Assembly (NCBI GenBank): GCA_037501455.1 | Contig: CM074856.1 | Coordinates: 99,107,001 to 99,171,000, forward strand | Direction of reading: 5' to 3' | Origin: Lantana camara | Taxonomy: Eukaryota; Streptophyta; Magnoliopsida; Lamiales; Verbenaceae | Length of the DNA stretch: 64,000 nt | Shown: positions 2,127 through 64,000 of the stretch, in pieces | Numbering within the stretch: the first letter of the stretch is position 1 | Layout of the letters: every line of letters starts with the position of its first letter | Program-made: the position numbers and the translations under genes | Notes under the pieces: model-generated | The model's input: only the letters and a program-made list of their open reading frames with translations | What the model was told of the DNA's origin: nothing | Databases searched by the model: none

Positions 2127-3866
2127 CGTAAAAGCCATTTAGGTACTCTAAGTCCCATCTTCTCAAGATGCACTTTGAGAGCCTATTGACTTTGGGCGTT
2201 TCCAAAGTGGATCTGCTATATTCTCTGCTGATGTGACCCTCTTGTTTACACATCTCTTAGGAAACACCTTTTCCTTATAAAGTGATTCGTAATCACGTGT
2301 TCAGTCTCTTGGTGAGGTCTTGGTTCTCTTACTTGAGCAACCATCCATTTTATCATACAATATGATAAAGGAGTTGTTTCATGCTAGGAACTTCATCTAA
2401 CCGGTTAGATGGAGTTTCTTACCCAAACACTTAATTTAGCGTTATATAATACGACTAAGTTCTCAACTACGATAGTCGAGTTTTGCAATGTCCGTCCTTG
2501 GAACCCCCTTTCCAACACATTGCATTACCATTCTGGTAGAAGTTGTATCCTTTCAATGATTTCATAATCATCTATGTTTGATGAACGGTTACATCAAATA
2601 TCCTTCTAACAACAAGATCTTTTGGGCTCTGTAAACTAATATATATCCTCATTTCTTCTCAAGTACTCTGAGGACATCCTTTACAGAGATCTAATGACCT
2701 TCTCTGAGGTCATATTAGATTCGGCCTACTACGCTTAGTGTTGCGCCATATCTAATTTAGTACATAACTTTTCATACATTATGCACCCTTTCACTTAAAG
2801 GGATTTTGGACATTCTAACTTTCTCAAAGTTATCTTAGGACACATACTCTTCAAAAGAGATGTTCCATTGTCCATACTAAACTCCTTTTAGCACCGTGGT
2901 TATGTACTCATTTTGTGATATATTCTCTTAGATCTATCTTCTATAGATCTGAATATCGAGAATATAGGATAATCACTAAGATCTTTCATGTCAAAATGTT
3001 TCTTAAACAAGAATTGGTAACTTTCACGTCATCCTTGACATTCCTAATGAGAAGGACATCGTCTTCTAAAGAACTAAAATTGACTCTTACATCACTAACT
3101 TTCATATGTACACTCTGAGACTTATTCGACTTCTATCTGTGTCAAACGATTTGACTGTGGAATCGAATTGTATAACTCCTAGAAGCCTTTATCAATCCAC
3201 AGATTGACTTTAGGGATTTGCATACCTTATGCATACTCCCACTGAATATGAGATTTATAGAAATACTTTATTTCAGTCTCTTTCAATCTCATATTGAACA
3301 AGATAGTTCTCATATTCATTTATCATATCTCATAGTCAGAATATGAGGATATGGTAAACACAATCCAAATGGACTTTTGTATTTCAACCGCAAGAAGGTT
3401 GTAATGCTTTCCATTTACTCGAAGCTCTAGGAGCTTGATCCTATCAGGTGGATCAACCAAGGTCAAAACTCGGTTTAAGTATATGGAATCCAAATTGGAT
3501 TTCAAGGCTTGCTTACACTACTCAGATTCCAAATATGACAGTGTCTCCTCTTCAAGTAATTCCTTGGCTATCTAGGAACGCGTTCTAAACGCATCTTAAG
3601 AGAAGGGTTTTCACACGTGTACATACTCTAAAATTTGGCTAAGTTTTTATCAGATGGGCTCGTTTCTTCTATATGTGGCATAGATATTTTTCCTCAAATT
3701 TCTTTGAGGTCTTCTTGCTTGCCTTTCTTCTTCTATAGGAACGATTCCTTAGGAAAGGTACATTCCTTGAGAAAAACGACCTTTGTCTAAGGGAATTGCA
3801 GAAACGATATCCAATATCATTGCATAAACTTAAACTCATTTCAAGCTTATCTCCCACTATCCTCTT
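2127..3866 (-). pseudogene. Decayed copia pol remnant (RNase H, RT, integrase pieces)
   Basis: No long frame survives, but pieces align in order with the polyprotein of element F: the C-terminal QKMGL region near 2155; the motif region around F's RSHQRTKH near 2310; the start of RT at 3323-3505 (MKSNLDSIYLNRVLTLVD, compare F MKSEMDSMNSNQVWTLVD); and the integrase tail at 3669-3857 (MGDKLE, compare F VGDKLE). RT is shortened: the VDPPDRIK region runs almost directly into QKSIWIVFTI, skipping about 40 residues. The remnant stops abruptly at 3866, where gypsy integrase begins. Not functional. Confidence 0.8.
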
Positions 3867-4800
3867 TGTCCCACGTGCCCCGAAAATCTAATGCGCAGGC
3901 CCTGAGCATATTTTCAAGGTATTTGATTAACCTCTTGGACTGACCATCTGTCTGTGGGTACGAAGCTGTACTGAAATTGAGTTTCGAGCCCAAGTAACCT
4001 TGTAAATCTTACCACAACTTCGAAGTAAACCTCGGATCTCTGTCTGACACAATGCTAACTGGAATTCCATGGAGCTTCACGATCTCACTGTAATACATCT
4101 CGGCTAACTTGCTTACTTTATCGGACATCTGTATGGCAAGAAAGTGTGCTGACTTAGTAAGGCGATCGACAATCACCCAGATTCCATCGAGACCTCCTCT
4201 AACCTTGGGTAAGCCAGACACGAAGTCCATTGTCACTTGTTCCCACTTCCACTCTGGGATAGGCAAAGGTTGTAATAAGCCTCCCGGCTTCTGGTGTTCA
4301 GCTTTCACCTGCTGACACGTCTGACAATGCCTCACATAATTAGCAATGTCTCGTTTCATCCCATGCCACCAATAGTATTGCTTTAGATCCCGATACATTT
4401 TATTATCCCCGGGATGAATTGAATAAGCCGATTTGTGTGCTTCGTCAAGAATAATACGTTGTAGTTCCTTCGGTACACAAACTTGAGCCCTATGCCTGAA
4501 TACCCCTAATTTATCAAACCCGAACTTCGATGTTGGATCAACACGGAATCTCTCAACTTGCTTTTGAATCCACGGATCAATGGCTTGAGCCTCGATTATT
4601 CTCTATTTCAAGTCGGGTTGAATTGTGATGTTTGCAATGCGAGCCGTCAACACAACAATGTCGCTTCAATCTCTAGAATCAATCTTCAAGTTAGATATGC
4701 TAGCCTTCCCGCTTAGAGCATCCGCGACCACATTGGCTTTACCCGGATGATAATGTATAGAGCAACCGTAGTCTTCGAGAAACTCCGTCCAACAGCGTTG
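3867..4800 (-). pseudogene. Gypsy element A integrase, partial and broken
   Basis: Minus-strand integrase of a chromodomain-type Ty3/gypsy element. The readable part (4009-4398) has the end of the zinc-binding module (CQTCQQVKAEH) and the start of the DDE core (MDFVSGLPKVRGG, then IVSDRDPRFTSKLW), which would join cDNA to host DNA. It is nearly identical to B at 49446-50330. The C-terminal part, including the chromodomain, is missing because the element is cut at 3866/3867 and fused to copia sequence. Several stops lie between 4400 and 4800. Confidence 0.85.
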
Positions 4801-6072
4801 TCTCATATTCAACTCTTTTTACGTGAATAAATACTTGAGGCTCTTGTGGTCGGAATAAATCTCAAAGGAGACACCGTACAAGTAGTGACCCCATCTAGCC
4901 AATGCAAAGATGATGGCTGGAAGCTCGAGATCTTGAGTAGGATAGTTTTTCTCATGATCTTTCAGCTTTCTAGAGGCATAGGCAATTACTTTACCGTTCT
5001 GCATCAAAACACACCCTAGTCCTTCTTTTGAAGCGTCGGTGTACACTGTAAATCCCTCAGAACCTTCGGGAAGGGCTAATACTGGTGCTGAAGTTAACTT
5101 GTCCTTCAGTTGCCGAAAGCTTTCTTCACAAGCCTCATCCCACTTGAATTTTACATCCTTCTTGGTCAGTTTAGTCAATAGGCGTTCTTGGAGAAGTTGT
5201 TCACGAACCTTCGATAATACCCGGTTAAACCCAAGAAACTCCTGATTTCAGAGGCGTTCTTCGGTTGTCCCCACTGCATCACTGTTTCAACTTTACATGG
5301 ATCAACCTCCACTCCATTCCTAGACACTATATGCCCCAAGAAAGTGACTCGGTCAATCGAGAACTCGCATTTGCTAAACTTAGCAAACAATTGATGTTTC
5401 TTGAGAGTCTCCAAAACCAACTTTAGATGCTGGGCATGTTCTTCGGGGGATCTTGAATACACTAAAATATCATTGATGAATATTACCAAAAATTTGTCGA
5501 GGTATGCATCATGTCTATAAAGCCTGCTGGGGCATTAGTCAATCCAAATAGCATGACAACAAATTTATAATACCCATACCGAGTGTTAAATCCCGTCTTC
5601 GAAATGTCTTCTGTTCGAATTCTCAGTTGGTAGTACCCCTGACGAAGATCAAGCTTTGAATAGTCCTTAGAACCCTGAAGTAGGTCGAAGAGTTCCTTAA
5701 TGTGTGGGTAGGGGTACTTATTGTTGATCGTCAGCCGGTTTAACTCACGGTAATCGATAGACAATCTTAAGGTCCCATCTTTCTTCTTAACAAAGAGAAT
5801 CGGTGCGCCCCAAGGTGACATACTCGGCCGAATATATCCGCAAGATAAAAGTTCATCAAGCTGAGTTTTTAAATCTTTAAACTCTGCCGGAGCCATACGG
5901 TAGGGGGACTTTGAATAAGGCTCTACTCCCGGGTATAAATCAATCACAAACTCGATTTCTCAATCAGGAGGTAAAGATCCCAAGCTCTCAGGAAAAACTT
6001 CAAGGTAATCCTTCACTACATTCGTCTCTTCAAGATTCACTTGATCTTTTGGCCTATTTAGGAGATAGGCTA
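4801..6072 (-). pseudogene. Gypsy element A reverse transcriptase-RNase H, broken
   Basis: Three overlapping frames carry the RT-RNase H region. 5483-5947 holds the RT palm ([38 protein letters not shown]). 5175-5489 resumes at FINDILVYS, so the FIDD catalytic motif reads FIND here (one Asp lost), after a deletion of about 11 codons relative to B. 4819-5178 holds RNase H ([10 protein letters not shown], then [10 protein letters not shown]). The region ends at 6067 in YLLNRPKDQ, where element C has inserted (TSD GGCTA 6068-6072). The 5' half of the same gene continues at 38694. Confidence 0.88.
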
Positions 6073-6155
6073 TGTAACACCCCAAACGGAGGATGCTACA
6101 TCCCCCGCACTGTGACCTAGAACCAGTCATGAAATGGAAGTCCATGCCCGAATCC
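6073..6155 (-). repeat. 83-bp remnant of the 3' LTR of element C
   Basis: Matches the first 83 bases at 6986-7068 with a few differences (TGTAACACCCCAAACGGAGG start) and abuts the TSD. In minus-strand terms it is the U5 end of the 3' LTR. It is joined directly to gag at 6155/6156, so one deletion removed pol and most of the LTR. Because the remnant carries no stop in this frame, gag of C, the LTR piece and pol of A form one continuous open frame (5960-6415). Confidence 0.88.
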
Positions 6156-6790
6156 CAAGTGCTAACATTGACAGCCTGAAGAGCTCTCTGAATATCCTCT
6201 CGAAGCCCATGAAGGAAGTGACGGGCTCTGTGTGAATCAATATCAGTGATGTGGGTAGCATAGGGTGCAAGCGTCTCGAACTCTAGAATGTAGTCCTCAA
6301 CAGATCTGGATCCCTGCTTCAGCTCAGAAAACTCCTGAAGTCTGGGCTCTCGTACACTATGAGGTATAAACTTCTCGCGGAACTCATGCATGAAAGTCTC
6401 CCAAGTGAACTCCATACCACTCCTCTCAAGTCTGGATCAAACTCCCTTGAGCCAGTTAGCTGCCTGTCCCTGAATGAATCGAGCAGTACAAACAGCCCTA
6501 CCCTGAGAACTCCCTGGGCAAATCTCCCAAATACCACTGATCTCAGCTAACCACTCCTCAGCCTTGATATCATCTCCTCCAAACCACTTAGGAGGGTTGT
6601 TGTTCCGAAACTCCCTATACACAACTAAGATAGTACCATCCTGACCATCAACTCGTGGTGTCTGCTGTCTCTGATTCTGTTGTAACTGATTGAGAAGTTC
6701 CTTAACAATGTTCTCCGTATTCAGTGGTGGTGGTGAAGGCGGATTAGGCGCATCTGGTGAAGCCTCTCGGTCACGGCGTCTAGGAGGCAT
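6156..6790 (-). pseudogene. gag of element C, truncated, one internal stop
   Basis: Starts at ATG 6790-6788 with MPPRRRDREASPDAP, the basic N-terminus usual for this gypsy group. It contains the capsid-like signatures NNPPKWFGGDDIKAEEWLAE and FSELKQGSRSVEDY. The frame is open except for a TGA at 6437-6439 between LKGV and SRLERSG. It lacks the zinc-knuckle nucleocapsid, lost in the deletion at 6155. It resembles gag of A and B only moderately, so C is a different subfamily. The product would have formed the virus-like particle shell. Confidence 0.85.
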
Positions 6791-6985
6791 CCGGTAATTC
6801 AAAGATTCAAGCAATATTGATGCATGTGGATTAGTACGTGTGTATGTATACAAGTATTAGAAATAAACAAGTATTCAAGTAAATAAGTCATATAATCACA
6901 TTGTCCTATGTCGTACCAGCTAGACAAACTCGACACGACACTAGAGCTCGCTTTTGCAACCTAGAGCTCTGATACCACTTAAGGA
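6791..6985 (-). other. Short leader of element C between PBS and gag
   Basis: AT-rich, non-coding. It holds the PBS and about 175 bases up to the gag start. I see no extra reading frame here, unlike element E. Confidence 0.7.
6966..6977 (-). promoter_or_regulatory. Primer-binding site of element C (tRNA-iMet)
   Basis: Minus strand TGGTATCAGAGC, eight bases inside the LTR end. It is complementary to the 3' end of initiator tRNA-Met, the usual primer of these elements. Confidence 0.9.
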
Positions 6986-9686
6986 TGTAACACCCCAAAC
7001 GGAGGATGCCACATCCCCCGCATTGTGACCCAGAACCAGTAATGAAATGGAAGTCCATGCCCGAATCCGAATCAGAGCGAACGGGAGACAAACACACACG
7101 CTAGCCTAGGCGGATCTAACTCGACAAAACTCAGAGCGCGAAAGCAATTCAATCATTCAAACATCCAAAACAGAATAGCCGAAATATTTAAATCAACATT
7201 CAAAACAAGTGACGGGTTCAACTAGCATAGATACCTAGTCCCGAATATCAACAAGCATAACAGGTGACGGGTTCAACTAGCATAGATACCTAGTCCCGAA
7301 TATCAGATCAACATATCGTAATAATCATCAAATGCCATAAAGGGGTCGAATATGAATGCCATGCAGGGCTACAGAAAAGTAAAGTATAATCTCAAGTCTG
7401 CAAGTCAAAAAATAAGTAAAGTGTATGAAAGACAAATGCAACTAGAAAGACTAGACCGACGAAGTGCAACTCAAAGGACTCACTCCCGCCTAGCAAACGA
7501 TAACAGACCTGCAACTAAAAGTTTAAATGAGGGGTCAGTCAACTTGACCGAATGAGGGGGCTAAAGCACACCTACAATATATATATAAAGAGCATAGCAC
7601 AGAATAAAAGGATGGACTTATGAACCGGGGATAGGTGTTGCATACCAAAACATTTCAAAATAACCCAAAAAGATATAGATATAAGTTTAGAAACCATTTC
7701 TAGAAAGACCCTATCCCGATTCATAATTCCATAACAGAATAGAACACATGCTCGGCGAGTACGAGCTTCCAACCTTTACTCCTCAGAACATAAATCAAAA
7801 TAAATCCATCCTCTACACCAATGATGGAGGAGATGTACCGTCCCCATACCATCGAGAATAAACCGTCTAAAATAGACTCACCCTCAAGGGGTAGCGAACC
7901 CACAAGAGTCCTCCCCGGCCTTAGCCGAAGGCTCAAGATACCACACCTTCCCTATAGCACGGGTCGCGTGAGGATATCTCAAATGGAACTACATACAGAC
8001 TGATCCCTACCGGTCCTATACCGTTCCAGGGCTGTCTATCCCATAGCTCCTTGGATCCATAACAGAACATATCATAACATAACATACGCCAATCTTTCAT
8101 GGCAATCTCGCTACAGAATTAAAACATAACTGTTTTCCAAAATAGCTTACATATGCCTCAAAAACTGGTTTATATATTTGTATTCCTACGCGATGGAACT
8201 TTAAGCCTCATGACCTCCACCCACGAAGGACGCACGCAAAATCATAAACATATCATATTCAACACGTATGTGTCTATAGTAAGGTATACTCGCATGCATG
8301 GGTAGAAATCAGTATGTAAAGGCCATAGGTCACATAACTATACAAAATCCTAAACCTCACCTCGTAGTAGTAGAGTCTGAGAGTGTGAAGGGCCAAACAC
8401 TATAAACCTCGGGCTCACCGGCACCACCAAACTCTGTAGCAAGACATACAAAAGCCCAAACTTAGACTCTACATGAACCAAGTAAGACGCACGGCGTACA
8501 AAGTATGAATGATATGCGAAATGGAATGATGCTTATCAAGTTGGTCACAAGGGTCAATTCAAATATTCTAGTAAATCATGCAAGTAATAAAGTATTAAGT
8601 TTCAGAGATGCATTCCAAGTCATATCGGATCATACAAGTCAAGTAACTACTCAAACGAATCAAATACGCACGAAAAAGCAAGTAAAAAAGGTCACAGACG
8701 CATGGGAACGACCATTCCCATGCACAACATAGCATGGGAACGGGCCTTCCCACGCCAAGGCCTAGCGAGACTGGGAACGGCCGTTCGCAGTCCAAGCACA
8801 CATGGGAACGGTCGTTCCCATGTTCGGCCGCCAAAAACCAACCCTAGCCCGGAAGGGCCGTTCCGAGTTTAAAGCACAAACGGGAACGGCCGTTCCGGCC
8901 ATAAATCTGGAACAGAAATTGGACAGTTTCGGGAAGAAGAAGGGGAACACTAAAAATCATCAAATCAACACGAAATCTACCATAAAACATCACGAAATTC
9001 AGGTATATCATCATATAAATCATTCTCAGCATCAAAACATCAATTAATTCAAGTTTAAGAAGGTTTTTGCCCAAAATCTCAAACACCCATTTTCCTGAAT
9101 TTCAAGCTTAAACATGAAGATATGAATCCCTAGTCTTCTACACACGAATTTCCAGTAACTAAGACACATAAGGAGCATTCAAATCATCAAGGCCTGCTTA
9201 AGGAATTCAAGATCTCATCATTCAAGTTCGTACTAACAATTTCATGCCCAATCTAAGAATAGAAATGAAATACTCATCAAAAGAGATCCAAACCTTACCT
9301 TGTCTTGTGAAGGAATGAGGAATCAAAGAATATGAGCTTTTAGAATGAAAGATGGTTCAAGTCTTGATCTTCTCTTGAAGTTTCTCCATGATTCTCTTTG
9401 AGGCTAACTTGTGTGGTTTGAATTGAAATGAAAAGGAATAAAGCTATTTATATGGTGGCTAATAGTTTTAGGTCAAGGTTAGGGTTTCCAAGATATAATA
9501 TGAGGCTAAAGGCTTGAATAGGATTTGGGCTCAAATAAATGACTTTCGGTCCAGGAAGTCAAAATTAAAAGGTTTAGGGTCTAAACGGTTTCCGAAAAAT
9601 ATAAAGTAAATTCCGTTGGACCCAAATCATTGAATCAAGTCCAATAGTGGTGTCGGAATTCGAATTCGAATTCCCGAGCTCATATT
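6986..9686 (-). mobile_element. 5' LTR of element C, main part (continues at 38406-38693)
   Basis: Begins TGTAACACCCC beside the PBS and runs to 9686, where element D is inserted (TSD ATATT 9682-9686 / 38401-38405). The missing U3 start is found beyond D and ends GGGAGTCACA at 38693, giving an LTR of about 2.99 kb. A 46-bp direct repeat around AACTAGCATAGATACC occurs near 7206-7305. The palindrome cluster is at 8701-8898, and a U3 block GAGCTCGGGAATTCGAATTC (minus strand) is at 9652-9681. Short reading frames within it show no family resemblance and are not genes. Confidence 0.88.
8701..8898. other. Cluster of six GGGAACGGCCGTTCCC-type palindromes in LTR C
   Basis: Six dyad-symmetric motifs of 14-24 bp lie within 200 bp: 8701-8722, 8732-8755, 8771-8790, 8801-8822, 8850-8865 and 8881-8898. 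All are variants of GGGAACGGCCGTTCCC. 8883-8896 is a perfect 14-bp palindrome, and 8801-8822 has 10-bp arms around GT. They sit about 1.1-1.3 kb from the LTR start. Equivalent clusters with other flanks occur in LTRs S, G1, G2 and G3. Function unknown; protein-binding dyads or RNA hairpins are both possible. Confidence 0.85.
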
Positions 9687-10261
9687 TGTAACGCCCCGGC
9701 GAAGGGTAATCACATCCTACCCCGCGCTAAGGTTCTAGCTCGTATATGAAACTGACATCCATATATGCGCCGTTCCCAAAGCAAGCGGTGACGGACAAAC
9801 AACCTGGCTAGGCGGTACCTAAACAACTTGACTCAACGTGCCGTAAAGAAGCAACAGACATGCGAAAACGAGCATAAATTTTTTCAACAAACGTGTAGCA
9901 TGCAATCGGAATCAATTCATTAACGTCAATTAACAAGATCAATCACGCATCACACAGTTCAACGGGTTCAAGAGCATACAACCTGTTGAACTGTGTGATG
10001 AGTGATTGATCTTGTTAATTGACGTTAATGAATTCATTTCGATTGCATGCTACACGTTTGTTGAAAAAATTTATGCTTGCTTCCGCATGTCTGTTGCTTC
10101 TTTACGGCGCGTTGAGTCGAGTTGTTTAGGTACCGCCTAGCCAGGTTGTTTGTCCGTCACCGCTTTCTTTGGGAACGGCGCGTATATGGATGTCAGTTTC
10201 ATATACGAGCTAGAACCTTAGCGCGGGTTAGGATGTGATTACCCTCCGCCGGGGCGCTACA
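9687..10261 (+). repeat. 575-bp palindromic 5' LTR structure of element D
   Basis: Left arm 9687-9963 and right arm 9985-10261 are each 277 bp, highly similar inverted copies around a 21-bp spacer (9964-9984). The right arm is the U5 end of an LTR (ends CCGGGGCGCTACA) and is followed eleven bases later by the PBS. The left arm is the same U5 end reversed and starts exactly at the insertion boundary. U3 and R are absent, so this end has no LTR promoter. Confidence 0.92.
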
Positions 10262-11552: not shown

Positions 11553-12498
11553 ACTCGTTGTTGTGCTTTGTGTTCGGTTTACTTTGGCTACGATCGAAAG
11601 TAGATGGTTTTAGAAGATGTCGAGATTCTGTAACGCCCCCACCCGTACTGGAACAAGAAGAGAGCGGCGTCTCAACCCCCGCACTGAAGCACCTCTCAAG
11701 TAATGGTGTGAGCCATCACTCAAGAAATACTCCAGTGAACGGCTGTCTAACTCAGAACTATACATGTACAACGATGTGGCTATGCAGCGGAAAATCAGAG
11801 TATTTTAAAACTTTTCAAAACATGTGCGTGATGGCATGTAACAAGCAAGAACATATAGATCGTGTAAGAGAGACTCGGCATATCAGAACATGTAACATAT
11901 TCACATATAAATACGGATACAGCAGAGTTCAAAATATCGATAACAGAGTAGCTGAAAGAGTATAACAAGGATACTCAAGTATTCAGAAACATATACAGAA
12001 ACATAAAGTGATGCAGCCATAAAACATATGCAGGACACAAAAGGAAGTAATACTAAGTCCTGACTGAAACAAAAATGACAATCTAGAGCTTCAAGATACC
12101 TCTAGACTGCGGCTGCAAGACCTGAAACCACGAGGCAAGAAAACGGGAGAGGTATTAGTCAAAAGGACTAAGTGAGGGAATACTTAAAAGAAAGTACTGA
12201 GTGATAAAGAACTTAAAGTAAAGTTCAGAACTGTTAAGTGCAATGCTTTAAAGAAGAACTTGAAACAAGTTCACTTGATAAAACTGTTTGAATGTAATGC
12301 TGTAAAAGTATGCACGTTTTAAAACACTTTCATGAATGCTATCACACGCGCACACATATGCTGTTGATGGTTCATAGTTCTTTCATAAAATGGGATAAGG
12401 GTAAAATGAACTTTTCCAGATATGAATCATCCTTTATGAAACAGAATTTTGCCCGCAAGCTAGGCTCCTCCATCCTTACTCCAGAAAAACATGATTTG

Positions 12499-12658
12499 GT
12501 AGAGCATCAGACCAGGATCAACAATAATTCCACGTATAGTAGAGTATCGGACCAAGATCAACAATAACCCCACATAAAGTAGAGCATTGGACCGAGGTCA
12601 ACAACAACTCCGCACACAGTAGACTATTGGACCAAGGTCAACAACAACTCTTACCAAC
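12499..12658. repeat. 40-bp tandem repeat, four units, in LTR of E
   Basis: Units start at 12499, 12539, 12579 and 12619 with GTAGAGYATYGGACC followed by RGGTCAACAAYAACYCC. Period is exactly 40 bp. The same array is at 33020-33179. Confidence 0.9.
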
Positions 12659-12980
12659 ACATACAAACATGCACCATCCTCCACCGGTTGTCACTCCGGG
12701 TAGCTAGCCCTAGGCGACCTGTAAACATGTAATGGGAACAGATTTGCTGTCCGTTCCCAGACAGATTGTCCTGACTTAACAAACCTCCTGTTAAAAGTCG
12801 GTGTCAATTGTCTAAGTGTGGCGGCCGGTATTGGTGATGTCGTTGGCGCACACCTCCCGAACATCACCTCCACACATAACCGCCGGGCCCAAACTGTAAA
12901 CTGTATGCTTGCATTTAAGATTAGTAGTGACCAGAGTATCACGCCAGTATGCTAACTATAACATGTGAAACTGTAACTGT

Positions 12981-13080
12981 AACATATGATGCTGTCTGTA
13001 AAACATATGATTCTGTCTGAAAACATGTGATTCTGTCTGTAAACATATGATCCTGTCTGAAAACATGTGATTCTGTCTGT
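12981..13080. repeat. 20-bp tandem repeat, five units, in 3' LTR of E
   Basis: Five 20-bp units of AAACATRTGATTCTGTCTGW, alternating CATATG and CATGTG. The 5' LTR has six units (33502-33621). Confidence 0.9.
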
Positions 13081-13860
13081 AAACTATACTTTGAAAACAT
13101 ATGCAAAACATGTAACTGTCTTTGAACAAGAATGCAGAACTTTGGAAAACAAGTGCTGGAGATCAAGGTATACTATTAAAGTATGAATGATCCTTTCAAA
13201 AGAATGTCCCGATAAAAGGGATAGTTCAAAACGAGGTTTAGCTTTGAATTTCAAAACATATGATACGATAGTATAATCGTGGTTCCAGTTGGAAAACGTT
13301 TATAACTTCACCTCACCTATAGTCACAAAAGGTAGGTAGATAGATTATACGGTGCCCTGGGGATCCCAGTGCTCAACTTTAACTCCTGTAGGTGGTGTAC
13401 TAGAGTGAGCTTAAGAACTAAGACCCACTACTAACCAAGATGCATATGAAATGCATGAAACAATGAATAAGGAACGTGTAAAGAACATGCAACACAAGAG
13501 AGTAATACCATTTAAGGTATCCAATAAAGGTAACACACAAAGGAATACGTTAAAGTGAGTTACTCTCAACGTGAGACTATGATCTTACTATAACCGAGTA
13601 AGCTTTAGTCAAGTTATGAATCCTCTCGCAAACCTTAAGTTATGAAAGAAGTCCACGAAAGAAACTCATTTTGAAAACACATTTTAGACCCTGGATATGG
13701 AAACCCTAGGTACAAATGTCTATTAGGAAAGCACAAGTTTTATTACAATTTTACTATTCAAAAGCACTATTCAAAAGTACTATTCCAGATTACTATTCAC
13801 TATTACTATTCACAATTACTATTCACATGTCGGGTCAAAGGGTCGGGTCAAACCCTTACT

Positions 13861-38955: not shown

Positions 38956-41900
38956 TGTAACATCCCGCTCGTCCGGCCTTTCCAGGTACGCCCTCACGGG
39001 TGAGCTATGTGTGCTTTTAATTATTTAACTATGTGTTTATTATAATTTTTATGTGATATATTTGAATTACTTGAACGTATTTGACCTTATGTGATCTATT
39101 TGAACGTATTTGTTCTCTTTGTTTCGTTCTTGCTCCGTTTATGTTCGTTTTCGTTTTCGATTTTTGTGACTACGTGCTATGCGTGACTTATGTGTGTTAT
39201 GTATGTGTCTTTGCGTTTGTTACTTGCTTTTGAGTTCGTTTGTTACGGTTTTGAAAACCGTTTTATGTTTTAGGGACATAAGGGCCTAACGAGCTTTAGC
39301 GCACCTTGTGTTCCGGAAGGCGTAACTTGAGCTCGGGAATTTGGATTCGAATTCCGGAAGATGCGTTGGATTCGTAACGAAGAAAGCAAGACAAAGAATA
39401 AAGATTCATATATTTCTAAGCCCATTTGATTCCCCGTTTTTCAACCGGAACGAGCCCCTTGCGCCTTTAAGCTATCTTTTGACATATTTAAGTTTTGTGG
39501 ACCCCACTTAAACCCTAACCAAGCCTTAAACATGATCTATAACTTGAGTTAACATCCCTTTTTAGCCCTTAACCCCAAGAGAAACGATCCATTTCCTCTC
39601 TCCCCCTCAATCTCGTTCAGCTCCAAGCAAAGGAAGAAGGAAGAAACCCACTTTGGCTATTTTGAAGAGTTTGAGCTCAAATCTCCACCAAATCTTCCCA
39701 AATTCGAAAAGTAAGTTTATGATCATAATCTACACTCTCTCTTATCTCTTATATGTGGATTTGAGATGATTCCTTTGGTTGGTTCTTGAGATTTGGCAAG
39801 CATGTGAATAGTGTAGGTTGGATGAAATTGTTGATTCTTGCTTCCTTCTTAATTCTCTTGAGTTTGGGTGATAATATGTTGCTTCTATGACTTGATTCTA
39901 AGTGTTTATTGCATCTCCTTCCTTGGTAGTTGAGATAGGATTGTTTGGCCTTGGATGAATGCTTGAGAATTAGGAGATATATCTTGATGCATTCCCTCCC
40001 CTTTTCTTGCTTTGATTCTTGCATGTTTTGTGGCTGAATTTATTTCCACTTGTATGGCATGAAAATATGTTGGATTGGTGTTATTTCCTTGCATGTTATA
40101 TGTATTTTTGAAGGCATAAGAGACTCCCCAAGGCCAAATACCGAAATCCCCTGTTTTTCTCTCCCAAAAACTGAAATGTTGCTGCGTTATTTTTCAGTCT
40201 CGAACGCATGACACGGCCGTGTCATGTTTTAACTGGAAATGGACACGGCCGTTTCAAGCTCTCGATGTTGGGTCCTGATTTTATTTAAACCGGACACGGC
40301 CATGTCCGATTCCTATACGTTTTGGACGAGGCCGTGTTCAATTAGTAAGTATTGACCGGGAGGAGTTTCTTTCGTCATTTCGTTGCTTTTAGTTGATCTT
40401 GCTTGCCTCGTTTATAATGTGTATGCATGATTAACTTGTTGTATGACATGTTAAGCTTGATCTTGTGAATTTATGATTTATTCTTTGCCCTCGTTTGTGA
40501 GAAATGTTCTTGTTTGCATGTTATGTCTCTATATGACCTAATGTGGATTCATTCCATATTCTTTGCATCATAAACATACATACACATATGCCGAGCGTCT
40601 AATGTGGTTCATTTTGAGTCGAAGGTTGTCCTTTGCCTTTGTTTGCCTTTAGGTTCGTTCCTTGGCTGACGAGGTTATCTTCTAGACGTCCGTTTGCTTC
40701 CTTTGCTCCCGTTGCTTCTCGGAGGTGAGGTTTCTTTCTTTTTAGCTATTATGACCTACAACCCTAATTGTAATTTAAGCCCGCATGCGAATTATATATA
40801 TGTATAAATAAGTGTTGGATATGTATTTTGCGGGAATTGGCCCATTCGTTATTAAATCCATTGAAAAGGATTTTATATGTATATACGCTAAGTTTTGTTT
40901 ATTCGTTTTCGAAAAGGGTTGGTGTGCGTACGTGTTAAGTTTTGACAAGAAAAGCCTTTGTGTTAAGTATCCGTTTTGTGAGATATGTGTGTGAGTTCTG
41001 TGATCTGTTTGGGCCCCGGAGATTGTGGGTAAGGGAGACCCGGGACGACCATTGGGGTCGCCGGTTACGACCCCTGTGCACTTCTCCACCAACGGGAGGC
41101 TTAGTTCTCCTATACCGACGGAGCGCATTTTGGCATGGCCGTCGAAGGAATCGGGCGGGATCCCCCGGTTCATCAGTTCTGTTCTGTGGTGGGAACCGAG
41201 AGGGGCACCTCTCTTCCCCAATGGTGTAAAGGTGGGATTGTTTTATGAGTTTTGCTTTAGTCTGAGTAAGTGTGTGTGAGAACTCGTTCTCGCCGTGTTT
41301 CCGTTTATGTTTTGTATCCGATATGGTTTGCTTTATGCTTATGTATCCGATACGGTTTGTGAAACGGAGTGGACTCCTAATTTGTAAAACTTGTTAGATT
41401 TTGGCCTTTGGTCCTAACTCTTTCTTCGTATATATAGTATCACGTGTTAAACCTTTTGGAATGTAAAAACCACTCCCGGTTCATGAACATTTTCGATTTG
41501 AATATGCTTGGCTCTTATGTATACGTATGTGTGCATGTGTTAGCCCCGCACCAGGTTCTAGGACTGACCCTCGTGGCTTCTCCTCTTTTCCCCTTTGTTT
41601 TGAGCTTTGCAGGTACCCGATTTGGAGTCTGGCTATGCGGCAGTTGTCTTTCGAGTCTTGGGAGTTGTTCGAGTCTTTGTAGAGTCTTTGCATTTGCATA
41701 TTTACTTTCCCGCTTTGGTACTACGTATATTTGGTACTATGTATAAATAAGTATAAGTTATGTTCTGTAATATGAAGCTTTGAATATTCCTTTTTGGCCC
41801 GGGGTGGGCAAAGCATGTTGCTATATGTATGTCTCTTACTAAGCTTTTATATCTGTATTTGGATATGTTAGTTGATCCTGTCGCTTCCGCACTTCTGATT

Positions 41901-42065
41901 TATTTGGTTGCGCACTCTGTTCAGGGTCTAGACCGCCTAGCCTAGAGTTGATTTTTGTTTGTCACCCGTTCGCCATGGTTCGAAGCGGGAATGGAGTTCC
42001 CCTTTCGATACCCGTGTTGGACTATGGTGCGGGGGATGTGGCGCCCTCCGCTCCGGGGTGTTACA
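38956..42065 (+). mobile_element. Solo gypsy LTR S inserted in protease region of A (TSD GGTTA)
   Basis: 3110 bp, TGTAACATCCCG to CCGGGGTGTTACA, with GGTTA at 38951-38955 and 42066-42070 and no internal region, so it is a solo LTR left by recombination between two LTRs. The plus orientation follows from similarity to C and G3. U3 has GAGCTCGGGAATTTGGATTC (39329). A palindrome cluster lies at 40207-40340, about 1.25-1.4 kb from the start. The stretch about 41025-41225 resembles the right part of the other gypsy LTRs. No gene seen. Confidence 0.92.
40207..40340. other. Cluster of GACACGGCCGTGTC-type palindromes in LTR S
   Basis: 40207-40226 is a perfect 20-bp palindrome (CATGACACGG plus its inverse). 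Imperfect relatives are at 40241-40257, 40291-40308 (CGGACA/TGTCCG arms) and 40324-40340. They share the GGACACGGCCGTGTCC pattern, as the C cluster shares GGGAACGGCCGTTCCC. Confidence 0.82.
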
Positions 42066-45485: not shown

Positions 45486-48400
45486 TGTAACGCCCGGGAC
45501 GTTGGATCGCGATATCTCCCGCACTACAACTCAATTCATATACGAAATGGATGGACCGTATACATACTAAGCAATAGCGAACGGGAGACAAGCAAAAGAC
45601 TATCCTAACTAGGCGGAACTTAACCCTGTACCATGCAATCAAATAACAATAGAGTGCAGAAGCATAGTAAGAAAATCAACTTTTGTCAATCGAGAGCACT
45701 ATGAGTTCAACAAGATAACAAGACACCGGTCCGATCATAATATTAGCATATGGTTTCGAAACAAAACATTCAACATAGTATGTAGGATAATGTACAATAG
45801 CCCACACGGCTCAAAATAGATAGAAGTATGCTAGTGTATGCATATCAACAACACGAGTGTACAGCTAGACCTAAAACATGACTTTAGACACGACCTGACT
45901 TTTCCGCTTAGTTGAACCTGCCAAACTAAATGAAAAACGGGGAGGGATTAATCTCTAGAAGACTGAGTGAGAAAGGTAAACATAATATAGACACAAGTTT
46001 CAAGCAAGCCACAATCCACGAATAGAATTTTATAATGCAGTTCCCAAGTGGGCAAGAAAAGAGTATAGCAATATTCGGGATTAGAACATTCCGATTACAA
46101 TTAATTACAATTTCAGGCATACAGTGGCCGGGCGAGTGAGGGCAAGGATCTCCAACCATATCTCCTGACAGTGTAAAGTAAATTGATTCCAATTTAATAG
46201 TTATCAGGCATCAGTTATTACAAAGCAATCAGGAACAAGCAAGCAATCCTTTTTCCTCCAAAGTGATGGACGGGTTTGCAAGGCCCGAACCATCCAGGAC
46301 AGGACGAGCATCAGGTACATGAATCCTATGCTCGGGACTCCCATCTCCCACCAACCTCCTGGTGGAGTCAGGGTACATCTCACAGGACGGAATCCACATA
46401 AGAGCTAGCCGTCGGCCCTTGCCTTCCCGGTTTACTCATTACGCGAACCCCACGGCCCCAAGAACCGTGCAAGATAGGACTCGCCAAAACAAGACGGGTT
46501 CATGAAACCATTTTCAGGAGTTGGAAAAGGGTTTATTTTACATAAAAACATTTACCCATTTTGGAAATCGATACTAGGTACAATATACTTTTGGCTAAAA
46601 TTAGCACATAAGGGTTGTAGGGTAGTAATAGCTAGAACGAAAACCTCACCTTAATTGCTGCAAAAGGTGAGAGTGTGTGCAACCTACTCGACTTGATCCT
46701 GCTCAACTGGGGAATCACCTGTTCAAACAGGACATGACACGTGAACTTGGACTCAATCATGAACCAATTATGATACACGGCGTTAAAATAGATGTATGAT
46801 GTACGTATGCAACCAATGATATAATAACATGTTACACTTGTGCTTGAAGTATATGATTATGGATAAAACGAGCAATTAACCATCGATCAATAGCAAACGA
46901 TGGCACATAAAACATTCTCAATCACAAAGTATTCAAATGGATAATATTTGTAATGTTAAATCAATGTACTTCAGTTCGCAATTAGGTGTAAGAAAGGTTA
47001 TGCAAGTTTCAGCTTATTACACTTACGCCCCCTTATGTTTAAGGACTAACAAGACCTATAATATCGAAACAAATCAAAGCGAACAAAACTAATTTCAAAC
47101 ATTTATGAATCATAAAATATAGAAGGAATAGGTACTTGGTTAAAAATTGGAAGATAACATTCTAAGGGCAACGTGATAGCTACGTAAAATGCATGAAAAA
47201 CAAAGTTCATGAACTAATTCTCAAACAATCAGATTGTCCAGAAACTTTCTGCACGTACATCTTGTTGAAAAATTACGATATCTCATTGCTCAAAAGCTAT
47301 TTTAATGATCCGTAAAATTCTTAGTAAACTAGACATGTATAACTTTCAAATGGTAAAGGCCTCGAATTATGGATGTTTACGTATAAAGACAAATTTCAGT
47401 GTCAAAGTGGAACAAAACAACAACTCTTGTGTTGTGACACGTTTGAAAGAAAATTTTCGTTACCATATCAAACGAAGTCAAAAAATTCTGAATTTTTGTA
47501 AGTATACTCCAGACACATATAAGAACACCCCCGTAAAAAAGTTTTGGAAAATTCAAAGGTTTACTTATTCTGCTGGGGCTGCAGTTCCAGATCAGAAAAC
47601 AGGGTAAAATAGGGGACTACGGCATTTTTCGGGGTACCAAACTGTGTCGGATGAACATAAAATTTTACGAAGTGAAACCTGAATATGTGAAGAATACTCA
47701 GTTCAAACAATTTTGAAAAATAAGGTCGTATGTGTTCGGAATTCACATTCGAAGTCACTGCACAAATCATGACAGCACCATAACTCACACGTATATCCTT
47801 CCTAAACTTTCAAATTGTACAAACTCACAGAGATTCAGACTCTTTAACAGAAAAACCATCAGATTTCCTCATTCTAAAAAGCTATGATTCATGTACTTAG
47901 CCAAGAAAATTGACATATTCGTTCAAGACAACTGCTGCTTAACTTTAGGATGCAAGGTTCTAAGATTTTCATGTTTTGCTAACTTCCATCATGTTTTCGA
48001 TCATTCTCAAGTTATAAAATTCATCTATGTTGATCAAATATTATCAACTCTAACATATATTTGCAGGAACTTCATCACTCTATCAAGTTTAAATCTATCA
48101 GCACATATACATACACCATATCATCTTGTTAGATGGAGAAAGAAATCACAATGTAGATTTCTACCTGTTTTTAGCTGCTGAAATTCGAAAAGAAGGACGA
48201 GAGGAGAGCTAGTTCTGCTGCTCATGCAGTGTGTGATAGAGGGACGAGAGGAAGATGATGGTGATGTAGGTGGTCTATGGGGTGTTGGTGTGTGCCGTGG
48301 GAGATAGCCAAATGAGAATGAGAAATGGAGAAATGGAATTTTCCTTCTCTTTGTCTGATCAAATGTAAAGAATATTGGAGAAATTATCTAAAAGAATGCA

Positions 48401-48704
48401 TGGAGGCACCTTTAATGCAATTAAAAGGAGTCAGCAAATTTTTCATGTTAAATTGCTATTGAACCCCTTTTAAATTAGTATTGAAGCAGTTGTTCCCTCA
48501 AATTTGTGGATGAAATCAATTATGTCCAATTATTCTATCTTTCTTTATTTATTTTTCCGAATTATGCAAAAATTTTCACTTTAGCACATAATTTACGAAA
48601 TTAAGTTTCGTTAAATAATTAGGGTTACGGATTGTAAGTGGTGAAAACACAAATTAGACTCTCACATAAAATATACCTAATTTACGAAAATACGGGGCGT
48701 CACA
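45486..48704 (-). mobile_element. Shared middle LTR of the A/B tandem
   Basis: 3219 bp, TGTAACGCCCGGG to CGGGGCGTCACA. It is at once the 5' LTR of A (PBS on its left) and the 3' LTR of B (PPT and pol end on its right), which is the arrangement expected after LTR-LTR recombination. It matches 55332-58506 throughout. It includes a block about 46250-46510 (GTTTGCAAGGCCCGAACC) also seen in G1. No ACGGCCGT palindrome cluster is evident in this LTR. Confidence 0.92.
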
Positions 48705-58506: not shown

Positions 58507-60520
58507 GAATGGGGACACTACACACTCACTATGCTAGGCGGGAGCTAACCCTTAAACAATTCAAGAACCAGAAATAATAAAATTAGAGTAAAAACAACAA
58601 TAGCGTAACAATTCAAAACATATAACATATATATTGAGCTTTCAAGCTCCTAAATATAATTACAAGTACCATTCAAGTATTCAATAGCCCATACGGCCTA
58701 CATATACAAAATAATACGCCCCACGTCACAATCATATACAAAATAATATGAGTGTAAGTGTGCAATACAAAAGAAAGTGCTAGACTCAAATGCAAGACAC
58801 ACATCCGCCTCGAATTCCCGCCTAGCACTCCCACAACCTGCACAAAACAACTAAAAACAAAACGGGTTCAGTCTAAAGGATACTAGTGGGTATAAAACAG
58901 GGCATAAGTATAAATATCGCAGAATTTAAACACGTTCATGCAAGTCATAATCCCATATGAAGTTTTTATGACGATTCCCAAGTGTGTAAAACAAAGAAAA
59001 AGCATCAACAGGAATACAACATCATACTCATTCATTCATTAGGCTATTCGTGAGCCCGATGAAAGGCTAAGTCTCTAATTTGCACCTTATGTAATCATTA
59101 ACATTTCATTAGGTTATCATACGCATAATCTTTTGTGCACAATCATTCGATCATTCATAATCATTCAAACACACCTTTTTCCTCCTGGTGATGGACAGGT
59201 TTGCAAGGCCCGGCCACCCAATCATTACGGCCAGTGGCGTACATGAATCCCCAAAGGCCTCAGCTCCCATTCCCCGCTAATCTCCTAGCGAAGGTCGGTA
59301 TTACTGCATTTTTGGTGGAACTAGTATACGGGGGTCATCGTCAGCCCAAGCTTCCCTGGATCACCACGTACACTAAGTCCCAGGGCCCCCATTGAGTGCA
59401 TTCAATCAATTCGCCAAAACATTCGGTAGGGATTCTTTAAAGGAAGACTTTAAGTTTGAAATCATTTACTGTAAAAAGACTCGATATATAATATACTAAT
59501 TTGGCTTAAAACTTTTCACATAAGGGATATATCGAGTAAATTTAGCTAATAGTAGAGAAACCCACCTTAACAAGCAAAAGAGATGGCACAAGAGCCTCAA
59601 AGACCGCCCTCGTCTCCGACTGGACCCAAATCTATGCAAAAGAGTTGAAGTGAGACTCAAAATGTCCACATGATATGAGATGCATAAGAAGTATAAATCA
59701 TGTTATGAAGCCATATAACGAAGTAATTCATTCAATACGTTCAATACATGAAGGTTTCATATTCAATTGTTCCATAACTTTCATAAATCATATCAAAATG
59801 AGTCAAAAACTTAATACATTAATCATAACACATATAACAACATGTATAAAAATAATATAAGTCAAAAAATGAGGCAATGAAATGAGAAAACAACACACTC
59901 ACACACAAGGATAGGGCTAACGCCTTCACAGAAAGCTAACGACCGTTAGCTAGGTCTATAAGGACTGCCTTGGGTTAACTGCCGTTAGTCACACACACAC
60001 AAGATCACTAAGCCCCATTGGGGTGGGGGGGGGGGGAGAGGGGTCAAAGATTCACCCAAGGGAGTTAACGCCCGTTAACCCCCAAAACACACTCAAGCCC
60101 TAACGAGCGTTAGGCTCCCCTGGGGTTGAATTCTTCGAAATTCAGCCCCTGATTCACCCCAAAAGCTCAACCAAGCCAACCCAACACCAAGCTAGGACAT
60201 TAAGGAAGGTTAAAACATTAAGAGTTCATGCAATTCATGCCAAGAAAGTTGTTAAAATCCAACCATAACATGAAAACAATGTAAGAGATAAGATCAAGTT
60301 CATGTTCTTCCATTTTCATTCAAATTCATCAATGGCATCTCAATAAATTCCCAATCACCAAGCAACCTAAGTCAATACAAATATAAATACATGTCTTGGG
60401 ATCAATTATCACTCATGAAGCTCACAGAAATTCCAAGGAAACAAAATTAAATCTCCAAATGAACACAAACCCTTACTATTCATCATATATATATCAAATC
60501 CTACTCAAGACTTGAAAAAT
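58507..60520 (-). mobile_element. Partial gypsy LTR G1, minus orientation
   Basis: Aligns with LTR G2 from about 60618 onward (GGGGACTCACTCACTAGCTATGC) and shares with B the block GGTTTGCAAGGCCCGG (59200). Its first 60 or so bases are absent because the A/B element inserted here; the missing edge would lie beyond the left end of A. A run of 12 G is at 60025-60036. The U3 side is lost at about 60520, where G2 starts. No genes. Confidence 0.75.
59935..60114. other. Cluster of TTAACGCCCGTTAA-type palindromes in LTR G1
   Basis: 59935-59950 GCTAACG/CGTTAGC around AC; 59975-59988 imperfect; 60064-60079 GTTAACG/CGTTAAC around CC; 60099-60114 CCTAACG/CGTTAGG around AG. All arms are perfect except the second. 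Confidence 0.85.
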
Positions 60521-62767
60521 TTAACGGCAGCGCGTGACGCCACATCCCCCACACTAAGATCCCACCCGCATATGAAATGAGTAATCTATATACATGCCAG
60601 ATCAGAGCAAACGGGGACTCACTCACTAGCTATGCTAAGCAGGAGCTAACTTTCAAAACCAATTATGCAATAAAAGAACCAAGTGCAGGTTAAAGAAACA
60701 TGAGCGGAGGCATAAATTTTCAATTTTTCAATAACATAATCAATGACCTCACAAGCTCAAATTCAATAACATTAAAGCGCTCGTTGGTGTTCCTAGTCAT
60801 AAATAACAATGCAAATAGTATGAGTCTAAGATAAAAGAAAGCTATACACGACTCCCCAAGACTCTACGGACCCGAAATCCCGCCTATCACTCCAAAACCT
60901 GCAAGAGAAACTGAAAACAAAGTCGGGTTCAGTTTTAAGAGACTGGTGGGTATAAAACAGGGCTTATTACAATAATAATACAGAAATTAAATACACACAC
61001 ATGCAAGCCATAATCCCGTACGAGGTTTTAAAATATTTCCCAAGTGGGTGAAAACAAAGAAAAAACATTTGGGATTACAACAACCAATTTCATTAATTTA
61101 TTAGGTCATTATGTGAGCCCGGCGAGAGGGGGAATTCTCCAACCTTCTCCTCGTATGTGCATTAACCATTCATTCATTTTCTTGGCGATCACACAACATT
61201 CATTCATTCGTTCATAATCATTCATAACCATGCATAATCATTTACTCCTTTTCCCTCCAGTTAGTGAACGCGTCCCTGGGTTGAGGTATACCCTCCAGCC
61301 CAACGATATTGTCCTGCACAGCTGAGCACTGGCCAGGTTTTGTTTGCGTTGATGTGTACCATCCCACGGAAAGCGTAGGGCCGGTATCGCCGTAGTTTTT
61401 GTGGAACTAGTGCACGGGATCACCGTCAGCCCATGGTTCCCCGGATAGCCACGTACACTTAGTCCCAGGGCCCCCATTATTCATTGTGTTCACTGATCTT
61501 GCCAAAGCATTTGGTAAGGATTCGTTAAAAGAATAGGGTTTAACGTTAGATCATTGACTCTCTTGGAAAGACTCGATATATATATATACATATATACATA
61601 TATATATATATCATACTTTGGCCTAAAACATTCACTTTGGATATATCGGGTCAATTACTAACTAATAGAAGAAAAACCCACCTGGCTACACCTAACCGAA
61701 CACAACCAAGAAGAACAGAAGACTTAAAGTAGCCTATGAACCCGGCACGTCTCCGCCTTGGAGAAAACTGTACAAAAGGACGATACGGTGCATACGTGAG
61801 ACTCAAGTCTACAAATAAACCATATATGATGCACGACAATGCATTAACGTGTCATGACATGCATAAGAAATAACAATGTGTTATGAAGATGTTCATGTGC
61901 ATAATTAATGCCACTTAGACACACTGAATTTCAGAGCATAACTTCAGAATTATGTCAAATCATAACATATATTCATCAATTAATATCATAAGATAAAATT
62001 AAAGGCAAAAGAAATTATTTAAAATGTCAAACGAATGTTGAAAATACACGTGCAACATCATACGTTAGCATTTACGTCATTCAAGTTCGTAGCTCGTAAA
62101 ACTTGTATTAAGTCACCCCGAAAAATTAATACAAGAAACATAACACATAATATGATATGTAAATAATACATAAGAGTCATGATCGGTGCGGGAAAAGATT
62201 TCGAAAAACATTTAAATTACAAAATGAAAATTAAGTGACAGTTGCGTACTCATGCATGGCTGCATGGAATATCATATATGAATACATGCATACATGTTGT
62301 GTATGTTGCAAATTTTGAGATTTAACAACACTTCGAACCATGCCGCATAGCCGCGCTCTTCACACCTTAAAATGTTGTGCCACCGCGCAGCTAATATAGT
62401 AGCAAATCTCGAGAATTACCGCGCGGCCTCAGCCAAAGCTAGTGTATTTTATGCACGGCCGTGCTGGGTCTTCTTCTACTAGGACAAAAAATACGCAGCA
62501 GCAACTCTATCCTTCACGTAGCAAATCAGGGTACAAGTAGCAGGTAGGAGCAGTAATACACAACATATAAGGCATAAAAATGCAGCAAATTTCAGTCACA
62601 ACTTCACACATACACAACAACAATTCATGCAGCAGCAACAACGGAAGCAAATCAGTCCCAAACTCCATGAAAGCTCACGTTGCAGCCATGGTGGATCCAC
62701 ATACACCTCATATAATTCAAATTCATGCTTATAACCAGTTCAAGGATGCAACAAGGATCATATATTT
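60521..62767 (-). mobile_element. Partial gypsy LTR G2, minus orientation
   Basis: Starts near AACGGCAGCGCGTGACGCC, the expected U5 edge, and follows the layout of G1. It is cut at 62767 by LTR G3; TATTT at 62763-62767 would be the G3 duplication, its partner being outside the window. Contains a TA-rich microsatellite (61577-61611). No genes. Confidence 0.7.
62453..62464. other. GCACGGCCGTGC palindrome in LTR G2
   Basis: Perfect 12-bp palindrome with the same ACGGCCGT core. Neighbours at 62345-62356, 62391-62399 and 62419-62427 are CCGCGC-rich but degenerate, so this cluster is decayed or smaller. Confidence 0.65.
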
Positions 62768-64000
62768 TGTGACACCCCGTTTCTTCGGCAGGCCAGGTAT
62801 GACATCACGAGAGGGTTTTTCGATGTTTTAATTTCTCTTTTCTTTTAATTTATACGTTGATTTATTTGTTCAAGTGATATTTGTGTCCTAAGTGTTTAAA
62901 TTTCACGCTTTAACTCTTGTAATTAATTTCTCCAGCTTCAATTTAATTCTCGAACTATGTGAATACGTGATATATTTGAATTATATGTTTGTGAACTTGT
63001 TTACGTGTTTATTTTATTCATTATAGTTGTTCGTTTTGGTCGGAGACCATTTCTTGATTTTTAGGATTTTAGGACAACATATATTAAGCTGGGGAATTCA
63101 GATTCGAATTTCGAAAGTGGCGTCGGACTCGTAACAAGATTTGGAAGCTAAGAAACCTATCCTTGTATTTTTCTAAGCCCATTTGGACCCCCGTATTTGG
63201 CCCGTAACGTGAGCCTCGTGCAGCTTCACCACCTTTTACGGTTTTGGCCACAACTTCCTCGTTTCTTAACCAAATGACCCGATTCTTGAGCCTAATTAAA
63301 CCTAATTTAACCCTATCGCTCATTATCCTAACCTCACATTTGAACTCAGTAGTGAAGAGGGCTAGAACCAAGAGAGAAGAAAAAGGGGGAATTTGATTCT
63401 ATTCATTTTGCAAGTTTTGGGCTCCATACATCTTCATTTCTTCTCCAAATTGAAAGGTAAGTATATGCTCTTGCTCTCCTCCTTATTTTGGTCATTTAGA
63501 GCTGTGTTTGAAGATCCAATCATGCTATGAGATTAGATGTGAATGGTTAGGGATTGTAGATTTTTGGTGAATTTCTTTCCGGATGAAGTAGGAAGTTTGG
63601 GGTTCGATTTCATGGTGTTTCTTGGACCTTTTCCTTGATTATTTATTGCTGCCTTCACACTACTTCGTTACTGTTGTTGAGTTGCAGGGGAGAGCAGTAT
63701 AACTGCTCTCATTTTTTGGGCGAAGACGGGTAACGTCTGTTACCTCGTCCATGTGTTTTGGAGGTAACGCCCGTTACCTCCGCCAGGCCTTCAAGGCTTT
63801 GTTGCTGCCTCTATTAATAGGGGTTACCACATTTGTGCATGAAAGGAGTAACCCCCGTTACCCCTTCCCCTTTGTGCTTCGTTTGTGGCTTTTTGTGACT
63901 GATCTTGTGGTGTCATTTGTTTACTCGTTTCTCATTTTGTTTTTGATTGTATTTAATTTGTCCTACCCTGATTATGATCCTTATATGCTAATGTGTTGTA
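62768..64000 (+). mobile_element. Gypsy LTR G3, plus orientation, cut by the window end
   Basis: Begins TGTGACACCCCGTTTC. U3 has AGCTGGGGAATTCAGATTCG (63088) followed by GGCGTCGGACTCGTAAC, the same order as in S. GAAAGGTAAGTATATG near 63450 corresponds to the R-region GTAAG of D and S. The palindrome cluster is at 63690-63861. The right end is outside the window. Confidence 0.82.
63690..63861. other. Cluster of GGTAACGCCCGTTACC-type palindromes in LTR G3
   Basis: 63690-63710 GAGAGCAGT/ACTGCTCTC (different core); 63729-63744 GGTAAC/GTTACC inside an outer GACG/CGTC pair; 63761-63780 GAGGTAACG/CGTTACCTC around CC; 63848-63861 GTAAC/GTTAC around CCCC. Position about 0.92-1.09 kb from the LTR start, as in C and S. 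Confidence 0.85.

Follow-up and report, generated by a model that had tools for sequence, protein, structure and literature searches.

In part of a retrotransposon clade in Lantana camara, the long terminal repeats (LTRs) carry arrays of three to seven short palindromes (dyads) that share the core ACG-NN-CGT in all arrays, bear flanks that differ between LTR families, and change in both arms together. The arrays probably lie within intron 1 of a putative leader inside the LTR. Our favored reading, which we hold tentatively, is that the array would be a DNA-level binding array for a dimeric regulatory protein, with copying between arms contributing. Because both arms change together and the place is probably intronic, simple tests could separate dimer binding, a tag on RNA and a by-product of copying.

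Dyad arrays in the window

The window, i.e., the whole 64 kb stretch of DNA analyzed here, consists throughout of nested LTR retrotransposons and comes from a genome of 1,271,175,918 bases in 378 contigs. Its LTRs and arrays are as follows.

6986..9686, minus strand: LTR C, without its 5' end; its 3' end, GGGGTGTTACA, is at 6986
6966..6977, minus strand: primer binding site TGGTATCAGAGC, adjoining LTR C
8701..8898, minus strand, which is the element's sense strand: six dyads forming the array of LTR C (8701-8722, 8733-8754, 8769-8792, 8800-8823, 8850-8865 and 8881-8898)
38956..42065, plus strand: LTR S, a solo LTR with GGTTA flanking each side
40206..40346, plus strand: dyad array of LTR S, GACACG type; of its four dyads, one pairs perfectly across ten positions and the rest are partly decayed
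45486..48704, minus strand, with a second copy at 55330-58506: LTR E, of C's clade, with exon-2/acceptor-3 signals and without a dyad array
59932..60117, minus strand: dyad array of LTR G1, TAACG type
62449..62468, minus strand: LTR G2, where one GCACGGCCGTGC dyad stands without a clear cluster
63727..63868, plus strand: dyad array of LTR G3, GTAACG type; the LTR extends past the window end

For each cluster, centers were scored by the number of complementary pairs among eight, and the counts were compared with 1000 shuffles. LTR C (8695-8905) has six centers with at least 6/8 pairs (shuffle mean 0.93) and four with at least 7/8 (shuffle mean 0.08), counts that none of the 1000 shuffles attained, and the six dyads given for 8701..8898 in a preliminary description of this DNA are thereby borne out. 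Centers with at least 7/8 pairs number two in S (reached by 3/1000 shuffles), three in G1 (0/1000) and two in G3 (4/1000). LTR G2 has one ACGGCCGT dyad and no center at 7/8 or above, and its count at 6/8 or above is matched by 17/1000 shuffles; dyads at a comparable place, which had been claimed for S, G1, G2 and G3 alike, thus form clusters in S, G1 and G3, but not clearly in G2. No such cluster was found in LTRs D and E of the window.

Core sites were also collected with pairing ignored, as any site within one mismatch of ACGNNCGT; of these, the five cluster regions hold 17 and the remainder of the window 133. Five or six of the outer pairs 5-10 are complementary at 11 of the 17 sites inside the clusters versus none of the 133 outside, although this and the other tests on the 17 window dyads are not fully blind, since the cluster regions were picked by eye as palindrome-rich. 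The CpG count of the cluster is reached by 2/248 windows of the LTR in C, 11/296 in S, 25/183 in G1, 10/214 in G2 and 20/108 in G3.

Some simpler accounts of the arrays were tried and rejected. Whole-unit tandem duplication would not suffice as their sole source, as the spacing in LTR C is irregular (32, 37, 31, 46, 32) and only about 25 nt are shared. Heat-shock-like GAAnnTTC sites do not fit, the spacing in C being 6 rather than 2. MYB-like half-sites of the form AACGG would fit C and most G1 and G3 dyads but not S or G2. Insertion preference for palindromes was rejected as well, as it is about target sites (PMC6911290), not LTR arrays.

Relatives of LTR C and affiliation of the elements

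Compared with S and G3, LTR C is short of about 310-370 bases at its 5' end, where another element cuts in at 9687. The unit abutting this cut end (9687-10261) is a 575 bp LTR-like unit which forms a single inverted repeat from end to end (93.6%) and begins TGTAACGCCCC; TGGTATCAGAGC follows it at 10273. Past the 3' end of LTR C stand TCCTTAAG and then the primer binding site. A gypsy-like pol, recognized by its Pfam domains, lies at 3862-6076 and is 94% like 49444-51669. The tie of LTR C to this pol is one of adjacency and is uncertain, because an 87-bp copy of the LTR end (6072-6158 and 6985-7071, 94%, minus strand) intervenes.

C and S are 55% alike in an alignment over 2.4 kb. S can also be aligned with G1 and G3, G1 with G2, and E with C, S, G1 and G2, and C, S, G1 and G3 are mutually alignable around the array or up to it. 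We therefore regard C, S, G1, G2, G3 and E as old relatives. The window also holds a pair of array-less LTRs, D (11629-15813 and 32150-36354, 4.2 kb, 97.6% alike, minus strand), with repeats belonging to other elements between them. The pol beside D has a chromodomain (15751-17274), the only one among the elements examined for it. Elsewhere in the window, a fold-back unit occupies 36828-38400, with 616-bp arms that are 97.6% alike and LTR-like ends TGTGACGCCCC / GGGGCGTCACA. Two 6.6-kb stretches, 42089-48704 and 51934-58506, each contain an LTR E and a G-box LTR (see below) and are 94% alike, which points to a segmental duplication.

The affiliation of the array-bearing elements is clearest in a young array-bearing insertion, whose two LTRs we call L001 and L002. 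An 1801-base piece between them is a single open frame of 600 aa, with RVT_1 at residues 109-269, RT_RNaseH at 362-456 and Integrase_H2C2 at 555-600, and this element has the Ty3/gypsy gene order of reverse transcriptase, RNase H and integrase. The clade of long-LTR elements is probably Ty3/gypsy as a whole. No Rfam match was obtained within the window, and no relatives outside this genome were found among viral contigs, genome contigs or plasmids (the last by blastn). A protein search returned, in its best 120 of 7893 matches, distant pol proteins, the species shown being flowering plants and nearly all dicots.

Occurrence of arrays in the genome

A blind sample was drawn as 20 pieces of 10 kb each, four per contig on C1-C5, with coordinates fixed regardless of motif, and an array was called where three or more core sites, each having two paired flank bases, lay no more than 120 bases apart. 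The sample contains six arrays with 27 dyads. Two (L008 and L017) are of the C type and three (L012, L019 and L024) of a GTGACAC type with mostly C- or G-rich centers; in the sense strand, these centers are G-rich in L019 and L024 and mixed or C-rich in L012. The sixth (L005) is of an AAACG type, and its outer arms pair weakly (7/24). An inner flank of CACG or CACC occurs in three of the six.

Five of the six arrays lie upstream of the exon-2 donor (described below) in LTRs of C's clade; the other, L008, aligns with C over the array, and exon 2 was not placed in it. By the neighborhood of exon 2, 11 LTR copies of the clade were recognized in the sample, one of which was dropped for having too little upstream sequence (less than 1.3 kb). 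Among the 10 copies with at least 1.3 kb upstream, five have an array and five have neither an array nor any other GC-rich dyad cluster. The excess of dyads expected at the same place in other copies is therefore seen in the six blind arrays, but half of these 10 clade copies do without one. Because arrays were sought through the ACG core, those with another core may escape these counts, except where any GC-rich dyad was sought.

Over the whole genome, the matched C-type 16-mer with a fixed center, GGGAACGGCCGTTCCC, occurs at 15,128 places and its unreversed control at none. The mixed pattern GGGAACGNNCGTGTCC, which joins the left flank of C to the right flank of S around any center, occurs at one place, so that the contrast of 15,128 to 1 is one between a single matched and a single mixed pattern. 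Strings like ACACGGCCGTGT are common in other dicot genomes.

Coupled change of the two arms

In the window, 79 of 102 cells at pairs 5-10 of the 17 core-defined dyads are complementary, against 42.7 when right arms are shuffled across dyads (reached in 0/20,000 shuffles). With the shuffling of right arms confined to dyads of the same LTR, 64/102 cells at pairs 7-12 are complementary versus 47.5 (p=5e-5). This within-LTR result persists with each LTR omitted in turn (p at most 0.0084) and after removal of the best dyad of every LTR (43/72 versus 34.0, p=0.008), and at 13 pair positions two or more Watson-Crick types occur in one LTR. The blind arrays alone give 86/162 versus about 75.5 within arrays (p=0.02), with no array significant individually.

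Pooling the window and the blind sample under one rule yields 43 dyads (16 and 27, respectively). Between arrays, pairs 7-10 are complementary in 111/172 cells against 64.4 after shuffling (0/10,000); within arrays, pairs 7-12 are complementary in 147/258 against 119.6 (0/10,000), a weaker match than that between arrays. Among the 60 exact-core sites in 264 kb (the 200 kb of the blind sample plus the window), the flank triplets are mirrored in 20, where 2.65 would be expected from the margins. Pairing declines outwards gradually; it is 0.81 at pair 7 and has dropped to 0.23 by pair 14, and the innermost pair is complementary in 0.40 of the 43 dyads.

Both arms of the dyads thus change together, as the preliminary description had proposed along with a shared core and family-specific flanks, and these points hold in the larger set. 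Dyads are in excess at this place in other copies and their arms do not diverge independently, contrary to what had been named as grounds for giving the proposal up. Its further statement that all copies within an LTR share the flank applies to the inner flank; the outer arms differ between dyads and yet mostly pair. Homogenization within the LTR, likewise, reaches the inner flank and no further.

Position of the arrays relative to putative splice signals

The following signals were placed in the window.

9445..9452, minus strand: TATAAATA in LTR C, about 150 bases ahead of donor 1
9294..9300, minus strand: putative splice donor 1 of LTR C, AGGTAAG
8361..8433, minus strand: putative exon 2 of LTR C, 73 nt, bounded by CTTGCTACAG and GTGAGG
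40653..40724, plus strand: putative exon 2 of LTR S, 72 nt
63455..63461, plus strand: putative splice donor 1 of LTR G3, AGGTAAG

Downstream of the place of the array, C, S, G1, G2 and E share an aligned acceptor, a block of 66-86 nt and a donor (GTGAGG or GTGGGT), and the last acceptor (GCAG followed by GT) lies 728-888 nt beyond the exon-2 donor in the same five LTRs. The upstream donor GTAAG is aligned in C, S and G3 and is present in L019. No TATAAATA-like box was found at the corresponding place in S and G3. Among copies elsewhere in the genome, the exon-2 donor was placed in L001, L003, L005, L012, L017, L019 and L024 and the last acceptor in L001, L003, L017 and L019. Donor 1 has a weak placement in L001 and L003 and is a few bases off in L012; it was not placed in L005, L017 and L024, and no splice signal was placed in L008.

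The array of C begins about 405 nt and ends about 590 nt past donor 1. Judging by these predicted signals, the array is probably within intron 1 of a putative leader inside the LTR. The array would not be needed for splicing as such, because E has the same exon signals without it. If the leader intron is real, it raises the question of how these elements retain an intron in an LTR that is copied via RNA.

Conservation between young subfamilies

A motif search, separate from the blind sample, yielded the LTR pairs L001/L002 and L003/L004, each about 7.3 kb apart. Since the LTRs within the pairs are 99.84% and 99.92% alike, we take them to be young insertions of two subfamilies. Identities of 99.8-99.9% also mark the LTR clade as recently mobile in this genome. 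Between the two subfamilies, the four dyads are identical at 95/96 positions and the spacers at 30/33, against 1731/2328 in the rest of the LTR. In windows of 100 columns, identity climbs over a span of several hundred bases and is highest at the array, where it is 0.94-0.96; the profile has lesser maxima of 0.93 near 2112 and of 0.87 at the start of the LTR. Constraint on the array would be the simple reading of this profile, and recombination between the subfamilies could give part of it.

Candidate explanations

If the array binds protein, a symmetric dimer would read two inverted half-sites, each made of the family flank and ACG, across an unread 2-bp center. Several such sites per LTR would drive or protect transcription from within the first intron, a role like that suggested for the Sirevirus motifs discussed below, and new flank types might spread within an LTR through duplication of dyads and copying of one arm from the other. 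Such copying would explain why pairing often extends past the shared motif. One core is kept across LTRs that are mostly 55-69% alike where they can be aligned, which pure pairing would not need, and the innermost pair is complementary about as often as in an unread spacer; a fixed core with an unread center speaks for a dimer that reads sequence. The complementary outer pairs at 11 of 17 core sites inside the window's clusters, the mirrored flank triplets, the rarity of mixed flanks, the near-identity of dyads between the young subfamilies, the balance of G-U and A-C given below and the Sirevirus precedent also argue for binding. Against it, the array would lie downstream of donor 1, whereas the Sirevirus motifs precede the TATA box. 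Outer arms that vary among the dyads of one array still pair (147/258 versus 119.6), which binding alone does not lead one to expect and which speaks for structure or arm-to-arm copying. Five of the 10 clade copies lack the array, and the conserved block is wider than the array, so recombination could explain part of the conservation. A binding array with arm copying nevertheless remains the reading to which we incline.

The main rival, which we consider somewhat less probable, is that the dyads act in the unspliced transcript as hairpins or by intermolecular pairing, with selection for self-complementarity while the flanks drift by family; such a tag would mark genomic RNA for dimerization, packaging or export, because only full-length RNA keeps intron 1. 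The splice signals on both sides of the array and the pairing of arms past the shared motif agree with this, and an intron in an LTR would presumably last only if unspliced RNA is copied; packaging of spliced RNA must be avoided according to a paper on BARE (PMC3735527). Sense-strand folding is strong in C, S and G3 (z -7.6, -6.9 and -4.3), but the antisense strand of C folds equally well (z -8.3), G1 shows no excess (z -0.9), and palindromes fold regardless, which limits the weight of such scores. Stems selected as RNA should have more G-U than A-C in the sense strand. A first count over the inner eight pairs in the window gave 8 versus 4, but a hand count over pairs 1-10 of the window dyads in the core register gave 11 versus 9, and the 43-dyad set shows no strand asymmetry (13 versus 13 of 344 cells), an equality that is weak evidence because old copies dilute the signal. 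The composition of the centers, which in the sense strand is G-rich for L019 and L024 and either mixed or C-rich for L012, and a fixed ACG core that would be superfluous for pure pairing also tell against a tag on RNA. A more specific and rather doubtful form of it is a self-recognition code, in which the intron-borne self-complementary tags would let each family pair with and package its own unspliced genomic RNA; the tag would then drift freely as long as the arms co-change, and families would diverge by swapping tags. It is unlikely that the symmetry is a by-product without benefit to the element, kept up by a copying process in which reverse transcriptase switches templates or imperfect palindromes are corrected through hairpins. 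Symmetric pairing without strand bias and its gradual outward fall are what such copying would give, but no part of the LTR is better conserved between the young subfamilies than the one that holds the dyads (95/96 versus 1731/2328), and the same core is retained across distant families. Most improbable to us is that the arrays matter mainly as small-RNA hotspots, like the palindromes of maize Sireviruses, with host silencing driving a fast turnover. An excess of small RNAs at Sirevirus palindrome clusters (PMC10760457, PMC5311732) and the variation of flanks between families fit that idea, but the near-identity of the dyads in two diverged young subfamilies is the opposite of fast escape.

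Comparison with known systems

A second array within the window offers a contrast. A G-box LTR family (21515-23467, 29650-31588, 42657-44593, 52501-54439 and 335-2113), whose members start TGTTAGGAATAGTGCCC, has an array of CACACGTGTG / GACACGTGTC dyads beside a TATA run, the copy at 29650 being short of one dyad unit. Both this array and that of C are GC-rich dyad clusters in an LTR, but in the G-box family the core CACGTG stays mostly the same and it is the flanks that differ among the dyads of a single LTR, opposite to what the array of C shows, and the G-box array looks like a plain transcription-factor array.

For the retention of an intron, the barley Ty1/copia element BARE offers a model, with a spliced and translated RNA pool separate from an unspliced and packaged one, according to PMC3735527; packaging only unspliced RNA would keep an intron-bearing genome. 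Unlike the introns proposed here, that of BARE is 104 nt long and lies in gag, not in the LTR, and the text of PMC3735527 contains no word beginning with "palindrom-".

The preliminary description knew of no described LTR module like the array of C, a statement that has to be withdrawn in view of the Sireviruses (Ty1/copia). As Bousios et al. 2010 (PMC2829016) describe them, Sirevirus LTRs carry repeated palindromic motifs that have the core CGG-CCG in common, are extended in an element-specific way, form CpG islands and precede the TATA box; the motifs are thought to be regulatory there, and classic elements are said to be without them. Palindrome clusters of Sireviruses are tied to small RNAs in PMC10760457 and PMC5311732, the former of which also speaks of further repeat arrays, some of them palindromic, in the regulatory regions of transposable elements. 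The arrays described here resemble the Sirevirus motifs in being short, CpG-rich palindromes, many per LTR, with a common core and element-specific extensions that are alike within an element. CGGCCG itself occurs in some dyads of C, S, G2, L001, L008 and L017 and in none listed for G1, G3, L005, L012, L019 and L024.

The differences from the Sirevirus motifs lie in the type of element (Ty3/gypsy, as seen in the young element), the core (ACG-NN-CGT versus CGG-CCG), the number of copies (three to seven per LTR array, counting LTR arrays only, versus at least eight per element) and the position, which here is in a putative leader intron after donor 1, and in C also after TATAAATA, rather than before the TATA box. 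The end of LTR C also departs from the Sirevirus LTR-PBS junction, CA/ATTGG-TATCAGAGC, in being followed by TCCTTAAG and then TGGTATCAGAGC. Among the matches listed in a search of open-licence literature, we found no report of such arrays in Ty3/gypsy LTRs, nor of a leader intron in such LTRs. Palindrome arrays with a fixed core and drifting, arm-coupled flanks thus extend beyond Sireviruses to Ty3/gypsy LTRs.
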